Assembly: GCA_948468385.1 (NCBI GenBank)
Contig: CAOKHZ010000022.1
Coordinates: 1 to 64,000 of the forward strand
Origin: an uncultured Faecalicatena sp.
GTDB taxonomy: Bacteria > Bacillota > Clostridia > Lachnospirales > Lachnospiraceae
DNA length: 64,000 nucleotides
Reading direction: 5' to 3'
Shown here piece after piece: positions 47,581 through 54,763 of this stretch (the stretch's first letter is position 1; every line of letters begins with the position of its first letter). The notes beneath the pieces are model-generated. The model did no database searches. It was not told the origin of the DNA and was given only the letters and a program-made list of their open reading frames with translations. The position numbers and the translations under genes were made by a program.

Positions 47581-48156
47581 TCATTTTTCAAGTCCATCAT
47601 TTCCAATCAACCGTTCCAAAAATTTCCTTTCGGAAATTTTCTCCCCTTCTTCCGTAAAAAAGTCAATGCCGTCAATTCCATCCTCCGTCACGACTATGAA
47701 GGAATTCTCCGGTTCCATGCGAAACACCGTTTCCTCCCCGTCCGTTTTAACCACGACTTTGTTGATGCTTTCCGAATTTAACGACAAATAAATTCGATTT
47801 GAACGAAAAAGCCCATCTGATTGAAGCATCACAGAAGGATTGTCCATCCCCAACATCCCATCCATCCCCCTTATCCAACAATCGAAGAAGGGGATTTTCT
47901 CATAATATACATAATGGGCATCTTGCCGTCCACCGTAACGCCCCAAAAACACCATTATCTCCTCTTCCCTCACCCATAAAATTTCGGTGTAATTTTCTGG
48001 AAACTGCTCATAAAAGGCCGCTTCCAAATCCACGCCCTTATAAAAATGATGTTGCGCCTGATTATGGTTCCGCGTGAAAAAATAAAGCAGGCTGACACAT
48101 AAAATGATGACAACGGCTATGACGACAGCAAGAATGCCTCTATTTCTTTTCTTCAT
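47581..48156 (-). CDS. membrane-anchored protein, paralog of 54218-54763
   Basis: 191 residues from the ATG at 48156, chosen because it matches the start of the paralog; no ribosome site is clear. One N-terminal transmembrane helix (GILAVVIAVVIILCVSLLYF), then an extracytoplasmic domain rich in beta strands. Conserved text shared with the paralog includes YKGVDLE, FYE-FP-NYTE-LWVREE, YYEK-PFFD and RSNRIYLSLN. No family recognised. The two paralogs bracket the agr-like locus and share sequence upstream (around 48333-48420 here), so they are probably co-regulated. Confidence 0.75.
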   Translation of the reverse strand: MKKRNRGILAVVIAVVIILCVSLLYFFTRNHNQAQHHFYKGVDLEAAFYEQFPENYTEILWVREEEIMVFLGRYGGRQDAHYVYYEKIPFFDCWIRGMDGMLGMDNPSVMLQSDGLFRSNRIYLSLNSESINKVVVKTDGEETVFRMEPENSFIVVTEDGIDGIDFFTEEGEKISERKFLERLIGNDGLEK

Positions 48157-48553
48157 GATATTATAGATGAAAAAACGCCCATCACCGACAACTTCGTACC
48201 GATAAAAAACTCCACATACATCCAATTTTCAGATTCAGCAAAGCTTTTGTTCATGTAAACCACCCTTTCTAAATTTTTCCGTATTTTCTTTCAAAATTTA
48301 TTCCCCTTGGTATCTTGTCAAATACTTTTTCATAATACCACAATGGTTTCCCCTATTCCACCATTTTGGTCTAAAACGCCATTTTTGAGTATGAACCTGA
48401 AAATTTCATGCGTAAATTACCTTTTCTTCCATTGACACGCCCGAACCCATCCTTCCACAACCGTGTCTTGGACTGAAAATTGTTCTCTCATCTCACACCC
48501 TCGCAATTTAAAGCACATAAGTGTTGATATCAACATTAAACATGATACACTCT

Positions 48554-48991
48554 CTACCAAGATTGCATTCCAAACCTATTACGATAATACCATGAAATGG
48601 CGTTTGTTCCAAATACCAAAAGACAAAAAATCAAATCCCACAAATTTTCCATCCCTAAATTTGACAAATATACCCGCGACACAAGTAAAACAGCTATCAT
48701 TCCATAGTTCATGACAAACTCCGTTATTCTCCACTTCCTTCTTTCCTTTTCGCGGCATTCCTCTTTACAAAATCCCCACCACGATATCAAATTAGGAACA
48801 ACAAGAATTACATCCACAAGAACAATCCATCCCATACTTTCCTTATGATTCGGCACTGCCCAAACCCAAACAAAAATTGATATCAGCAAGCCTGCATAGG
48901 TAATCCAATTCACGATTTTGCAAACAGTCTCTTTTGTTGAGTTTCCACGCAAACCAAAAAAATCCAACAAACCACCCAATATTTTTTTCAT
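48554..48991 (-). CDS. small four-helix membrane protein of unknown function
   Basis: 145 residues with about four hydrophobic helices and charged loops (CKEECREKERRKW in the middle). No known motif. It lies 77 bases after the secreted protein on the same strand but beyond a hairpin at 49029-49061. Could be an immunity or transport partner of that secreted protein. Confidence 0.65.
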   Translation of the reverse strand: MKKILGGLLDFFGLRGNSTKETVCKIVNWITYAGLLISIFVWVWAVPNHKESMGWIVLVDVILVVPNLISWWGFCKEECREKERRKWRITEFVMNYGMIAVLLVSRVYLSNLGMENLWDLIFCLLVFGTNAISWYYRNRFGMQSW

Positions 48992-49068: not shown

Positions 49069-49707
49069 TTATTGAGCTCCAAAAGAGGCCGTACTACCAA
49101 CACCATCAGGCATCGGTGTCACATACATGATAATTCCCGTTCCATTCGACTTCACTTGACCAATCTGAGCTTTATAGGACACCACCTGCAAATTCGCAAC
49201 AAAAGCCGCTATCCTACATGCCTGCCCCAAGACAGACTGTGCCTTCGTCAATTTACTCAACACATTCGCCAGAATAGTCAAAGGATGCAAATTAGCAAGC
49301 GCATTGTACAAATCATCTGCCTGCTCGTTATTCATATAAATCAAGACCATTCCCGTTGCCCAAATCTCAACCTTGCTTTGCCCCCTTGCTCGTGTGGAAG
49401 CAAAATAAATGGTCATCTTAAATTCATCATCAATAACCGCCCCCTGAGTTTGCACTGCCTCATTGATTCCGTCAATGTTCCCCTGCACAAATTGTATCGT
49501 GTACTCAGAATACCCCGCTTCCCGCGCCCGCTCCGCATTCATCGACATGGTACCATCTTCATTTTTTGAGAAAAACCTCTCGATTCCTTCCACGTCAATC
49601 ACGTTTGCAGTTTCCTCGGCCGGTGCCGCCAATGCAACCGTACTCATAGATAAGATTGTTGCCCCAACCAAAACCAATGATAATAATCTCTTTGAAAATT
49701 TCTTCAT
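49069..49707 (-). CDS. secreted protein of unknown function downstream of AgrD-like gene
   Basis: 212 residues from 49707 (GGAGG eight bases upstream). A clear signal peptide runs from MKKFSKRLLSLVLVGAT to a probable cut after VALA. The mature part has a negatively charged start, a mixed middle and the hydrophobic stretch LANVLSKLTKAQSVLGQACRIAAFVA (split here: LANVLSKL, SVLGQACRIAAFVA), followed by a short glycine-rich end. No family recognised. It is the first large gene downstream of the AgrD-like peptide on the same strand, so it may be an output of the system. Confidence 0.7.
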   Translation of the reverse strand: MKKFSKRLLSLVLVGATILSMSTVALAAPAEETANVIDVEGIERFFSKNEDGTMSMNAERAREAGYSEYTIQFVQGNIDGINEAVQTQGAVIDDEFKMTIYFASTRARGQSKVEIWATGMVLIYMNNEQADDLYNALANLHPLTILANVLSKLTKAQSVLGQACRIAAFVANLQVVSYKAQIGQVKSNGTGIIMYVTPMPDGVGSTASFGAQ

Positions 49708-49872
49708 CAAATATACCTCCAATTTTCTAGCGTACTCGCTTCATTCCAATTTTCTGTAAACTTTCATATGCTGTCTAACCACGTTCCCTCTTCGATTCAC
49801 AATATTCCACACTGAACTCACCTCTTTCCTGAAACGCGCATCTTCAATAATCACTGCCACTTGCTTTCCTGT

Positions 49873-50028
49873 CTACTTCCTGCTCCTGCACTCGCTCTTT
49901 TGCGCTACCTCTTTCAACTCCTCGGGGATCTTCGGATCATACAATCCCATTACCATACTTTTTTCTACGGAACGTCCCCCCATTTTAACAACATAACGCC
50001 CAATCCATTTCTTCATCTCCATCCTCAT
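49873..50028 (-). CDS. AgrD-like cyclic autoinducer precursor lacking a core cysteine
   Basis: 51 residues from 50028, behind GAGGTGA. The layout is that of AgrD: an amphipathic leader (MEMKKWIGRYVVKMGG), a short core, then an acidic proline tail (DPKIPEELKEV). The core reads SVEKSMVMGLY. AgrD peptides usually have a Cys (sometimes Ser) that closes the thiolactone or lactone ring. Here the aligned position is Met, and the nearest nucleophile is Ser24 (or Ser20); the only Cys is in the tail. It sits divergent to the AgrC-like kinase and 2.6 kb from AgrB. Too short for standard gene callers. Confidence 0.7.
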   Translation of the reverse strand: MRMEMKKWIGRYVVKMGGRSVEKSMVMGLYDPKIPEELKEVAQKSECRSRK

Positions 50029-50113
50029 TTGTTTTCACCTCACTTTCTCGTCTGTATTTTGTTACCCCTATTATACACGACAGCCTCTTGTTTTTAACAA
50101 ATTTTCTTAAACG

Positions 50114-50170
50114 ACGGTTTGCAGTTCCTAAGCGTAGCTATTTTGCTAAAAACTAACGTTTGCGCTTTCT
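50114..50170. promoter_or_regulatory. LytTR-box-like direct repeats between agrD-like and agrC-like genes
   Basis: ACGGTTTGC at about 50114 and AACGTTTGC at about 50155 are 41 bases apart, about four helical turns. AgrA-type LytTR proteins bind direct repeats of this style. A related ACGGTTAAG lies before the agrA-like gene (51733). Confidence 0.35.
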
Positions 50171-50243
50171 CAAATGTATCTCGCAAATTATCAACAATCC
50201 GTGCCTTCAAACAATTTAACAATATTTTCTAGAAAAGCATTGC

Positions 50244-50264
50244 AACATAAAAGCTTTTTATGTT
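50244..50264. promoter_or_regulatory. palindrome in the agrC-like promoter
   Basis: Perfect 9-bp arms AACATAAAA/TTTTATGTT around GCT, overlapping the probable promoter of the kinase gene and 36 bases before its start. Confidence 0.45.
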
Positions 50265-50299
50265 ACTATACATAAAACATAAGAATGAAGGACGAAATC

Positions 50300-51613
50300 A
50301 TGGAACTATTACCTACTATCCTTACAAACACTCTCGTTTATTTCATACCGCTCTGCTGTCTTTTGCCATTCAAGATGCGCCCAAAGGAAAAAGTAATACT
50401 TTTCCTCATCCTTTTAGCAAACATCACTCTTATGGTATATGTTTTGGGAAATATCGGAGTGATTCTTTTGCTTATCACCACCGGCCTATATATTTCTACT
50501 ATTCGCCCAAAGCATCTGTTAAATTTTTGTTCTCTGATTGCAATTTACATGTTCTGTGCGGTTTTTGATAATGTATATTCCTTATTTCTATATACATTAT
50601 TGAACGTTCCAGTTTACTCTATAAAAAAAGACACCTTATCATATTTGATTTCTGTGGCTACCTTTATTCTGCTTTTGGCCATTATATGCCCTCTGCTTGC
50701 CAAGCTCATCAAACACCTGACGCGAAAAATAAACGTGGCATATTCCATGCGCCTATTCCTTCCCATCCTGATGAACCTCGTGTTTTGCCTTTTTATTTTC
50801 CTATTTAACATCATCGCGGGAGAGAAAGTAGGATACACCACCGAAATTGTCACCTTCAACTGCATTTTGTTCGGCTGCTATTTTATCGTTAGCAGCATCG
50901 TGACCATCTTTAGCATAAAATCCTATTTTTCCATGAAAGAGATGCAAATGAAACAAGATTCTTTTGACGCGCTGCAACGCTACACGGAACAAGTGGAAAA
51001 TACATATGACACATTGCGTTCTTTCAAGCACGATTATCACAACATCATGCTCTCCATGTCCCATTATGTCGAATCAGGGGACGTGGAAGGGTTAAGAACG
51101 TTTTTCGATAAAACGATTACCCCCATAAACAAACAAATTTCCACGGACACCGCCCACTTGAACCAATTAAAGAAACTGGGTATACCAGAGCTCAAAGGAC
51201 TTCTCACCAGCAAGTTATTATATGCGGCTGACCGGGGCATCGCCGTGAAGATTGACGTTCACGACGAGGTTTCCACCCTCCCAATGAATACCATCGACCT
51301 CGTTCGGGTGACGGGCATCCTGCTTGACAACGCAATCGAAGCCGCTTTGGAGAGTGATACGCCTACCATCTTGTTTTCCGTAATTTCATTGGAAAAAGAA
51401 CACCTTTTTATCATCAAAAACACATTTGTTGACAAGGGAATCCCCCTCTCCTCCATCCGCCAGCCAAACGTATCTTCGAAAGGGAAAAACCGGGGTGTCG
51501 GATTGTACAACGTAAACCAAATCCTCAAAAAGCAAAAGGACGTCCTCTGGGAAACAGAAACGAGCGAAGGCATGTTTATCCAACGCCTGCAGCTGCCAAA
51601 AAGTTGTACATAA
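50300..51613 (+). CDS. AgrC-like GHKL histidine kinase
   Basis: 437 residues from the ATG at 50300 (AAGGA upstream; the ATG at 50285 has none). Six or seven transmembrane helices occupy residues 1-205. A dimerisation segment with phosphoacceptor His244 (SFKHDYHN) and the GHKL ATPase domain follow, with Asn344 in GILLDNAIEAA and the glycine box GVGLYNV. This is the architecture of AgrC, the membrane receptor of cyclic peptides. The AgrA-like regulator gene follows 284 bases downstream, with its own promoter-like sequence. Confidence 0.9.
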   Translation: MELLPTILTNTLVYFIPLCCLLPFKMRPKEKVILFLILLANITLMVYVLGNIGVILLLITTGLYISTIRPKHLLNFCSLIAIYMFCAVFDNVYSLFLYTLLNVPVYSIKKDTLSYLISVATFILLLAIICPLLAKLIKHLTRKINVAYSMRLFLPILMNLVFCLFIFLFNIIAGEKVGYTTEIVTFNCILFGCYFIVSSIVTIFSIKSYFSMKEMQMKQDSFDALQRYTEQVENTYDTLRSFKHDYHNIMLSMSHYVESGDVEGLRTFFDKTITPINKQISTDTAHLNQLKKLGIPELKGLLTSKLLYAADRGIAVKIDVHDEVSTLPMNTIDLVRVTGILLDNAIEAALESDTPTILFSVISLEKEHLFIIKNTFVDKGIPLSSIRQPNVSSKGKNRGVGLYNVNQILKKQKDVLWETETSEGMFIQRLQLPKSCT

Positions 51614-51732
51614 ATCTGGACAATGCAGCCCCGTCTTACCGAAGACTAATTAAACATATGGGGGCGCCCGTTACAATTTGTCCAACGCTGGCGTAAATGT
51701 GATTTGCAACTACGCTTATGCGCCCAAAAGCG

Positions 51733-51778
51733 ACGGTTAAGAAATTATTTTTCATTTTACATATAACGGGTGTATACT
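51733..51778 (+). promoter_or_regulatory. agrA-like promoter with LytTR-box-like motif
   Basis: ACGGTTAAG at 51733-51741, close to the AgrA binding consensus. A TATACT -10 box is at 51773-51778, with TTCATT at -35 position. A 120-base leader follows, with GAGTTCC (51789) and GGAACTC (51851) able to pair. Confidence 0.4.
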
Positions 51779-51897
51779 AATACTATCTGAGTTCCCAATT
51801 CATGCCTACGGCACGAAGCTCACCCTTTAAGACACAAAACCGCACGGCTTTGGAACTCGCCCTCCAAACTTACACAGAATGAAAGGAGCTACCCGCC

Positions 51898-52620
51898 ATG
51901 TTAGACGTATATATCTGTGAAGATGACAAAAGCCAGCTTGACCTTTTTTCCAACTATATTTCAAACACCATTCTAATAGAAGACTTTGACATGCGGCTAG
52001 CCTTGTCCACACAAGATTACCACGAATTGTTAAAACTCTTTTCCCCTTCTGGAAACATCGGGGTATTTTTCCTCGACATCGACTTGAAGTCGAACCTCAA
52101 CGGCCTCGAACTTGCACAACGTATCCGCAAACTGCAGCCACGCTGTTTTATCATATTCATCACTTCCCACGTTGAATGCGGGATGGAAACATTCCGATAT
52201 AAAATAGAGGCGTTAGACTTTATCTGCAAGGGTACCCCTGACGAAATCAGAATGAAAATCAAAGATTGTCTATATAACATTGATGAAAAAATCCGTTCCG
52301 ACCCTAAAAGTTTTCACTTTAACATCGGGGAACGGTATATTTCAATACCGTTTAACGAAATCGTATTTTTCTGTACATCAGATAACTCACACAAGGTCAC
52401 GTTGTACACCATGAACAAATTGACCGAATTTTTCGGAACCTTAAAGGAAATCGAAGCAAACCTTGACAAACGCTTTTACCGCTGCCATCGCTCATGTATC
52501 ATCAACAAGGACTTTATCGACAACGTGGATTATGACACGTCCATCGTGTACATGAAAAACGGCGGGGAATGCCCCATTTCCTTCCGTTTAAAGGGTGGAC
52601 TGAAAAGACTGTTGCGCTAA
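51898..52620 (+). CDS. AgrA-like LytTR response regulator
   Basis: 240 residues. Receiver domain with the acidic pocket CEDD (8-10), phosphoacceptor Asp60 in FFLDIDL, conserved Ser90 and Lys111 (FICKGTP). C-terminal LytTR DNA-binding domain (about 137-238; FFCTSDNSHKVTLYT, FYRCHRSCIINKDFI). AAAGGAGC precedes the start. It pairs with the upstream AgrC-like kinase and convergently meets agrB, from which it is separated by a hairpin. Confidence 0.92.
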   Translation: MLDVYICEDDKSQLDLFSNYISNTILIEDFDMRLALSTQDYHELLKLFSPSGNIGVFFLDIDLKSNLNGLELAQRIRKLQPRCFIIFITSHVECGMETFRYKIEALDFICKGTPDEIRMKIKDCLYNIDEKIRSDPKSFHFNIGERYISIPFNEIVFFCTSDNSHKVTLYTMNKLTEFFGTLKEIEANLDKRFYRCHRSCIINKDFIDNVDYDTSIVYMKNGGECPISFRLKGGLKRLLR

Positions 52621-52630
52621 AAAATCGCGC

Positions 52631-52651
52631 GGAGGCGGCCAAGCCGCTTCC
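52631..52651. terminator. hairpin between agrA-like and agrB genes
   Basis: GGAGGCGGC/GCCGCTTCC arms with a 3-base loop (one G-T pair), followed by TTCTTGTTT. The genes converge here. Confidence 0.6.
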
Positions 52652-52658
52652 TTCTTGT

Positions 52659-53219
52659 TTACTTTTTCACTCTCACACACGGCAACAACGTCACCGCCTC
52701 GAATACGATTGCAATGAGCAACAAGTACGGTATCTTCTTCAGCATCACGTAACTTCCCACCGTGGTGAGGAAATATCCGGCGGAAAGCACCATGGTGTTC
52801 CTCCGCGCCTTTACATAGTTTTCCTCCGACAATGGATTATTCTTTGTCCCCTGCGGTCCCAATAGCACAAAAACGACAATGCACACAACGTAAAGCCCCA
52901 TCACCACCCAAAACGGAACCACCATATGTCTCGACAAAAAGGAACCGCCAATGACAAACACACCAGTAGACAAGAGACACGCCGAGCTCGTCTGGAAATG
53001 CAGGCCGCCCATGTTCATTTTCAGTAAGCCAAACGCCAAAAATAGCACCGCCCCTTCTTTAAGCACTCCCATAAGTCCCGCAACAACTAAAATGACCGCC
53101 GTCATCCAAACATTATGAAAAAGCACCTGAAGTCCCAGCCGCATTTTCATTTTGTCTAACTCCGACCATTCCCCGTCCACGTCCATGTACTCCATTACGT
53201 GATTTACAATCCACTCCAT
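52659..53219 (-). CDS. agrB: AgrB peptide-processing membrane protease
   Basis: 187 residues from 53219. AgrB is the cysteine protease that cuts AgrD and closes its ring. The motif MGGLHFQTSSAC supplies catalytic His74 and Cys81, with the same seven-residue spacing known from staphylococcal AgrB. Four to six transmembrane helices follow. It starts 31 bases after the ZIP gene and is probably co-transcribed with it. No AgrD gene is adjacent, unlike most agr loci; the only candidate is the 51-codon ORF at 49873. Confidence 0.88.
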   Translation of the reverse strand: MEWIVNHVMEYMDVDGEWSELDKMKMRLGLQVLFHNVWMTAVILVVAGLMGVLKEGAVLFLAFGLLKMNMGGLHFQTSSACLLSTGVFVIGGSFLSRHMVVPFWVVMGLYVVCIVVFVLLGPQGTKNNPLSEENYVKARRNTMVLSAGYFLTTVGSYVMLKKIPYLLLIAIVFEAVTLLPCVRVKK

Positions 53220-54217: not shown

Positions 54218-54763
54218 CTAATCCAAAAATTTCTCTTCTGAAACTTTCTCACCGTCCTTCGTGTAAAAGGCGACGTCATCAATCCCATCCTCCGTTATGA
54301 TTATGAAGGATTCCTCCGGCTCCACGCGAAACACCATTTCCTCCCCACCTTTCGCGACCACCGCTTTGCTAATCCACTCCGGGTTTAACGACAAATAAAT
54401 CCGGTTCGAACGAGCCCCTCCGTCCGTTATAAGCATCAAGGAAGAATCGTCCGCCTCCAACAGCCCATCCGTCCCCCTTGTCCACCAATCAAAAAATGGA
54501 GCCTTTTCATAGTAGACGTAACGTGTACCCTGCCGTTCGTCCAAACGAGCCAAAAACACCATCAAGTTTTCTTCCCTCACCCACAAAACCTCCGTATAAT
54601 TTCCGGGAAATTCCTCATAAAAAGTCTCTTCCAAATCCACGCCCTTGTAGGGAAAACGACGTGTCTGTACATAATGCCGCACCAGAAAATAGCATGGATA
54701 AATACACAGCAGAATGAGAATGACCATAGCGATAACGATGATATTCTTATATTTTTTCTTCAT
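54218..54763 (-). CDS. membrane-anchored protein, paralog of 47581-48156
   Basis: 181 residues from 54763 (GAGAGGGATT upstream). N-terminal transmembrane helix (IIVIAMVILILLCIYPCYFL), then the same extracytoplasmic domain as its paralog: YKGVDLE, FYEEFPGNYTEVLWVREE, YYEKAPFFD and RSNRIYLSLN. Identity to the paralog is roughly half by eye. No known family. It lies on the far side of the agr-like locus, 6 kb from the paralog, with a shared upstream segment. Confidence 0.8.
   Translation of the reverse strand: MKKKYKNIIVIAMVILILLCIYPCYFLVRHYVQTRRFPYKGVDLEETFYEEFPGNYTEVLWVREENLMVFLARLDERQGTRYVYYEKAPFFDWWTRGTDGLLEADDSSLMLITDGGARSNRIYLSLNPEWISKAVVAKGGEEMVFRVEPEESFIIITEDGIDDVAFYTKDGEKVSEEKFLD

Follow-up and report, generated by a model that had tools for sequence, protein, structure and literature searches.

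A 64,000-nucleotide stretch of contig CAOKHZ010000022.1 from an uncultured Faecalicatena sp., here called the window, carries the gene set of an Agr-type peptide quorum-sensing system, with density-dependent signalling by a cyclic peptide as its putative role. The core of its signal precursor, AgrD, contains no cysteine. The best reading of the sequence is that the ring nucleophile is Ser24, which places the peptide in a class of AgrDs that lack cysteine, serine and threonine at the usual ring position. On balance it is probable that the locus encodes a complete, self-regulating circuit of this cysteine-free class, in which AgrB would form a lactone on Ser24, most likely with a ring of six residues.

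The four genes lie on both strands. They are agrD (49873..50028, minus), encoding the 51-residue precursor; agrC (50285..51613, plus), a membrane sensor kinase with a GHKL ATPase domain; agrA (51898..52620, plus), a response regulator with Response_reg and LytTR domains; and agrB (52659..53219, minus), the peptidase/cyclase, 2.6 kb from agrD. All four open reading frames, with their strands, are as a first-pass annotation made from the sequence alone had described them. Its remark that AgrB keeps His74 and Cys81 also holds, both residues being invariant in 107/107 aligned AgrB rows (a set in which the window is counted and some genes occur more than once, for example L045/L125 and L056/L136). 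AgrB exceeds the curated cut-off of PF04647 (E = 6.2e-27). AgrC is identified by its domain and by AgrC models, with NF046015 matching at E = 2.2e-59 and 201.7 bits, below the model cut-off of 500; NF046049 matched at the agrC/agrA set, also with a score below its cut-off. In the 4.25-Mb assembly to which the window belongs, which is about 94% complete, PF04647 finds one AgrB, the window gene, and neither this search nor that with an AgrD profile found a competing AgrB or AgrD-like gene, including any canonical cysteine-containing AgrD that might pair with this AgrB instead. Searched against phage and plasmid sequences, AgrB matched two records of Listeria phages (27% identity) and no plasmid.

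Judged by its conservation, the 51-residue peptide is a constrained AgrD. It has the leader, core and P-x-x-P tail of a small AgrD precursor (core ...VEK-S24-MVMGL, tail YDPKIPEEL). Conservation of the open reading frame, proposed at the outset as a check, was found: orthologues occur in three of 11 further congeneric genomes searched (G006, E = 6.1e-13; G011, E = 5.1e-11; G002, E = 3.9e-7; remaining rows at E 0.27 or worse), and the peptide is recognisable in other genera of the family. Invariant residues in the four-row genus alignment include K23, S24, G28 and Y30-P35, and the NG86 ratio of nonsynonymous to synonymous substitution rates (dN/dS) is 0.23 against G006 and 0.19 against G011. 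A GAGGTG stretch resembling a ribosome-binding site precedes the start codon in the window, G006 and G011. A profile of 25 AgrDs with the ring residue at the usual position recovers the window peptide at 14.8 bits and E = 6.5e-3 (segment set), and a second profile, of 17 such AgrDs, has the window frame (E = 0.04) as its single match with E<=1 in the genome; both profiles contain the row of G117, which carries the V-G-K-S motif of the window's class before its cysteine. TIGR04223 does not reach the window AgrD and gives weak matches in 4/9 members of its class (best E 0.011).

These features bear on the idea that the peptide is an orphan decoy, a decayed AgrD or a chance reading frame. The curated models of Pfam and NCBIfam, AgrD models among them, do not match the peptide, profiles of other AgrDs find it weakly, and decay is visible in related loci: G002 has an agrB shortened to 100 codons, and G011 has a first agrC that is split into two open reading frames beside a second agrC/agrA pair. 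Set against this are the retention of the peptide in four genomes of the genus and in other genera, its low NG86 dN/dS, the kept ribosome-site-like stretch, promoter and double box (described below), a consensus −10 element at the same distance from that box in four relatives, and a complete set of agrB, agrC and agrA adjoining it. A decoy or chance frame, one of three readings offered by the first-pass annotation, is therefore very improbable, and of the other two, a serine lactone and a linear peptide, the lactone is the better supported.

The choice of Ser24 draws on a census of AgrD cores, with the +1 residue and the P-x-x-P tail setting the register in which each core was read. An AgrD was called near 82/107 AgrB rows, and 77 distinct cores remain once repeats are removed. 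Cysteine occupies −5 in 49 of them and serine or threonine in 16; ten have serine and one has cysteine at −6, and one has neither arrangement. In the window peptide, residue −5 is Met25, as had been noticed at first sight, residue −6 is Ser24, and there is no cysteine before the tail, so the core cysteine that would close a thiolactone is absent. Twelve cores are without cysteine, serine or threonine at −5, and in 11/12 residue −6 is serine (10) or cysteine (1). Among the remaining 65 cores, serine or cysteine stands at −6 in eight (16 counting threonine). The comparison of 11/12 with 8/65 gives a Fisher p of 1e-7, which is nominal because the rows are related. Outside the census, Ser(−6) recurs in G036, G261, G182 and G144, and together with threonine or serine at −5 in G093 and G078; core cysteines appear elsewhere in G036 (−3) and G085 (−2). 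A search of the phylum yielded matches in seven other genomes, six with serine or cysteine at −5 and one, L237 (G942), with Ser(−6).

All four genomes of the genus in which the peptide occurs keep Ser24 unchanged. In a nine-row alignment of the class the position is serine or, in G153, cysteine, and this is the sole core cysteine of G153, at exactly the position of Ser24. Ser20 had been proposed as the other residue able to close a lactone; it is rejected, the corresponding residue being alanine in G002, G116 and G153. Two other arrangements were seen among the AgrDs. Those of L085, L053, L061, L080 and L118, found near an AgrB in other Lachnospiraceae, have Ser(−5), no cysteine and Gly(−2), and are probably, from their sequences, five-residue serine lactones of a separate group. 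Those of L115, L077, L127 and L030 have Ser(−5) directly followed by Cys(−4), giving two candidate ring-closing residues.

AgrB might instead simply remove the tail and release a linear peptide, with Ser24 serving as part of a V-G-K-S recognition motif. The valine, lysine and serine of this motif are conserved together, and Ser(−6) is also present in 5/49 Cys(−5) cores, including that of the relative G117, where V-G-K-S precedes the usual cysteine; part of the conservation of this serine may therefore be that of a leader motif and not of a nucleophile. Such a reading accounts less well for the occurrence of cysteine at −6 without a nucleophile at −5, both in G153 and in G693, which lies outside the census and outside the family, or for a class alignment in which −6 is always serine or cysteine despite variation at −5 to −3. 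Linear staphylococcal autoinducing peptides (AIPs) are moreover reported as inactive (PMC12312760). A linear signal seems unlikely.

If Ser24 is the nucleophile, the size of the ring depends on where AgrB cuts. A cut after Gly28 would shift the cleavage site alone and give a five-residue ring, S24-M-V-M-G28, which is the usual size (PMC12312760). Gly(−2) is found in 8/10 Ser(−6) cores against 2/49 Cys(−5) cores, which fits this earlier cut, but it is also found in 6/16 Ser/Thr(−5) cores, where a cut at glycine would leave a four-residue ring. In addition, most members of the class keep an aromatic +1 residue and the P-x-x-P tail in the usual register, and a six-residue ring has a precedent in Clostridium acetobutylicum (PMC12312760, PMC10301443). 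The five-residue alternative is accordingly improbable, although it deserves to be kept in mind. Gly(−2) was also considered as an independent mark of serine rings (12/15 Ser-type cysteine-free rows against 3/54 Cys-type rows, Fisher p 2e-8). It was rejected as such because only two independent pairs occur on supported branches of the tree (sign test, median p 1).

The phylogeny of AgrB partly reflects this class. A quick maximum-likelihood tree was built from 105 rows, leaving out the truncated AgrB of G002 and one repeat, with support given by the Shimodaira–Hasegawa-like approximate likelihood ratio test (SH-aLRT). One branch of 19 rows (SH-aLRT 95) contains every Ser(−6) row of the tree, nine in all, together with its only Cys(−6) row. 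The remaining members of the branch are six Cys(−5) rows and the rows L140, L147 and L133, for which no AgrD was called and whose −6 residues, read by eye, are serine, cysteine and serine, respectively.

The regulatory half of the proposed circuit is indicated by an AgrA/LytTR-type double box in the agrD promoter (ACGCTTAGG-N12-TCGTTTAAG, 50106..50135, minus), recognised by pattern and weight matrix and followed after 30 bases by the −10 element TATAAT (50070..50075, minus). The agrD promoters of the window, G006, G011, G116 and G406 all have two 9-base direct repeats with a gap of 12, placed 29-30 bases before TATAAT. LytTR repeats are mostly 12 bp apart and upstream of the −35 element (PMC6193735), and AgrA binds paired repeats upstream of the promoters P2 and P3 (PMC4227749). 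A weaker double box in the agrA promoter (ACGCTTATG-N12-ACGGTTAAG, 51712..51741, plus) is followed after 31 bases by TATACT (51773..51778, plus). The matrix, built from the five agrD sites, scores agrA sites outside its training set at 14.6 in the window, 19.9 in G006, and 19.3 and 18.3 in the two copies of G011, all with TATACT 30-31 bases behind. The second agrC/agrA pair of G011 (L026:7496-9301) lies at a contig end and has a double box of its own.

A wider AgrA regulon was sought in the whole genome and rejected. Consensus matches with up to two mismatches number 35, fewer than the 94 of a reversed-pattern control, and in the 30 of these 35 sites that were read, a −10 element at 29-31 bases occurs only in the two sites of the agr locus. 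The agrD site is the only match in the genome with no mismatch, the pattern itself having been drawn from this site and its relatives. One further site, L184 (G000:C11:80648-80676), is a weaker double box, followed after 32 bases by TATCAT and situated ahead of a gene start that looks glycoside hydrolase-like by eye, and is a possible extra AgrA target.

Besides the points already given in favour of the alternatives, several observations weigh against a circuit based on a serine lactone. An AgrD call is lacking for 25/107 AgrB rows, and one core, L106, has a nucleophile at neither −5 nor −6. Of the 12 cores that lack a −5 nucleophile, only L028 and L106 were reached purely through AgrB; the other ten were first reached via the window's family or class profile, so the census is enriched for the class (the AgrBs of five of these, G116, G406, G153, G085 and G175, do stand in the AgrB search list). 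For the peptide, YN00 gives a dN/dS of 0.52 from the one computable pair, with the synonymous rate near saturation. For the promoters, the agrA box of the window, at 14.6, lies within the range of maxima from ten shuffled 64-kb windows (13.7 to 18.7) and is equalled or exceeded in score by two further sites of the window; it is consequently assigned by position and spacing. A consensus scan of the window with up to three mismatches returns nine matches against 8.0 expected by chance, and the matrix found no double box at the related loci of G002 and G153.

In AgrB enzymes that have been studied, the acyl group is handed from the enzyme's own catalytic cysteine to the ring nucleophile. By analogy, the window AgrB, with His74 and Cys81, would cut AgrD ahead of the YDPKIPEEL tail, and the acyl group would move from Cys81 to the hydroxyl of Ser24, closing a lactone that probably comprises S24-M-V-M-G-L29. 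The exported signal would then bind AgrC, which would phosphorylate AgrA. AgrA, in turn, is predicted to bind the pair of 9-bp direct repeats, separated by 12 bp, and to activate agrD and agrA, and perhaps also the exported-protein gene behind agrD.

The organisation of the locus was compared across 17 loci mapped with AgrB, AgrC, AgrA and AgrD profiles, weak AgrDs being read by eye. The order agrD(−), agrC(+), agrA(+), agrB(−) is found in the window and G006. In G011, G002, G116, G406, G153, G036, G078 and G093, agrA, agrB, agrC and agrD alternate strands, and agrB is flanked by agrA and agrC. Common to all ten are an agrD divergent from agrC and an agrB whose orientation is the reverse of that of agrC and agrA. 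Because this two-strand layout is common to ten genomes, spanning six genus codes (g1, g106, g143, g26, g68 and g83), the order is not scatter; the first-pass annotation was thus right that it departs from BDCA and wrong to call it scattered. The tree contains seven split-layout AgrBs, six of which group together (support 88); the seventh, G093 (L133), falls just outside. A different arrangement, with agrB and agrD together and divergent from agrC/agrA, occurs in G332, G175, G001, G144 and G085. The 13 kb fetched for G261 yielded no AgrB call, and the 8 kb fetched for G182, where the peptide is at a contig end, held neither AgrB nor AgrC.

Between the convergent agrA and agrB of the window, a terminator-like stem-loop (52631..52651, plus) is indicated by a consensus match only. 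In G006, a stretch close to agrB that first looked like a further agr remnant (26 residues, containing a stop) was discarded when a rescan gave no agr match there. The neighbour of agrB differs between these relatives: upstream of it, G006 has what appear by eye to be a phage-type amidase and a holin (L025:7301-9087), and the window has a ZIP transporter. Similar membrane-anchored proteins (recognised by eye; KGVDLE..FYE.FP.NYTE.LWVREE) stand on both sides of the window locus, at 47581-48225 and 54218-54763, both on the minus strand, which suggests a duplication or insertion there.

Candidate outputs of the circuit lie behind agrD on the same strand. The next gene downstream (49069..49722, minus) encodes a 217-residue protein with a signal-peptide-like start, judged by eye, and is followed by a gene for a 145-residue membrane protein, also judged by eye (48554..48991, minus). 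A counterpart of the former adjoins agrD in G006 (L025:2627-3265), and proteins similar to the latter are found downstream of agrD in G006 and G011. No terminator-like site was found in the interval between agrD and the 217-residue gene, and promoter-like sites occur there on the minus strand at 49875-49847 and 49777-49749. Exported or lipoprotein-like genes and ATP-binding cassette (ABC)-type genes stand behind agrD in G116, G406, G036 and G001. Ten proteins behind agrD were tested against families and others were judged by eye: DUF2712 passes its cut-off in G036 and G406 and matches below it in G001, DUF5027 passes in G036 and matches below the cut-off in G116, and an ABC ATPase is present in G036. 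By eye, ABC-type genes lie behind agrD in G116, G406, G001, G153, G261 and G078. In G002 (L027:7510-9851), a radical SAM/SPASM protein, one of those tested, and an ABC ATPase, recognised by eye, are encoded about 1.1 kb beyond agrD, an arrangement also found in peptide-modification clusters.

It is conceivable, and compatible with a serine lactone, that the signal mainly controls the exported-protein/ABC-transporter operon behind agrD, as a bacteriocin-like module and not as a global switch. The DUF2712, DUF5027, ABC-type and radical SAM/SPASM genes of the relatives favour such a module, and the restriction of correctly spaced boxes, among the sites read, to the agr locus favours local control. 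However, no bacteriocin was identified, and the window's own downstream proteins, of 217 and 145 residues, match no Pfam family above cut-off. This narrower role is a tentative suggestion, somewhat doubtful as it stands.

The window system resembles, and departs from, several Agr systems that have been described. With the staphylococcal agrBDCA system it shares a His/Cys peptidase AgrB, an AgrD composed of leader, core and tail, an AgrC kinase and a LytTR-type AgrA whose direct-repeat sites lie within the agr locus itself (PMC4227749). In contrast to that system, it has no core cysteine, its candidate nucleophile is at −6 instead of −5, and its genes are interleaved on two strands, where the staphylococcal genes form one operon in agrBDCA order. 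Serine is the ring residue in the AIPs of Staphylococcus pseudintermedius (RIPT[STGFF]) and Clostridioides difficile agr2 (NSA[SSWVA]) (PMC12312760); these match the serine proposed for the window peptide but have five-residue rings, with the serine at the usual position. The six-residue ring predicted here has a counterpart in the C. acetobutylicum AIP [CVLVTL], a thiolactone (PMC12312760), and in related clostridial systems predicted to have six-membered rings closed by cysteine (PMC10301443). This group differs in its cysteine closure, its separate agrBD and agrCA operons and its LanM-like partner gene. The gelatinase biosynthesis-activating pheromone (GBAP) of the Enterococcus faecalis Fsr system is a serine lactone with a ring exceeding five residues, as proposed here, but its ring has nine residues (PMC12312760) and fsrD is located within fsrB (PMC3673130), whereas the agrD of the window is well apart from agrB, and the distance from Ser24 to the tail is six residues. 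There is thus a printed precedent for a serine lactone and another for a six-residue ring. Their combination, or a two-strand agr layout, was not met in the portions of the literature searched, a scope outside which supplements, most subscription papers and preprints lay. agrA and agrB have been noted in 199 rumen bacterial genomes (PMC10838665).

These comparisons raise the prospect of a separate Agr lineage in the Lachnospiraceae, for which the case is at present evenly poised. In such a lineage the nucleophile would have moved one residue outward and changed from cysteine to serine, giving six-residue lactones (mostly S-x-x-x-G-[LMVI]), with many loci having agrD divergent from agrC, agrB opposite the kinase and regulator genes, and an exported-protein/ABC-transporter output behind agrD. 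Agr signals are usually recognised by their cysteine, and if the members of this lineage do form six-residue lactones, chemical trapping based on thiols would miss them. The class yields a clear and cheap prediction, of one serine and one mass, and the window and G153 form a natural serine/cysteine pair that bears on AgrB's choice of nucleophile and ring size. In the class-enriched sample of 77 cores, 17 have no cysteine in the nine residues before the tail, and 16 of these have serine at −5 (7) or −6 (9); part of clostridial signalling in the gut could therefore be oxygen-ester chemistry.

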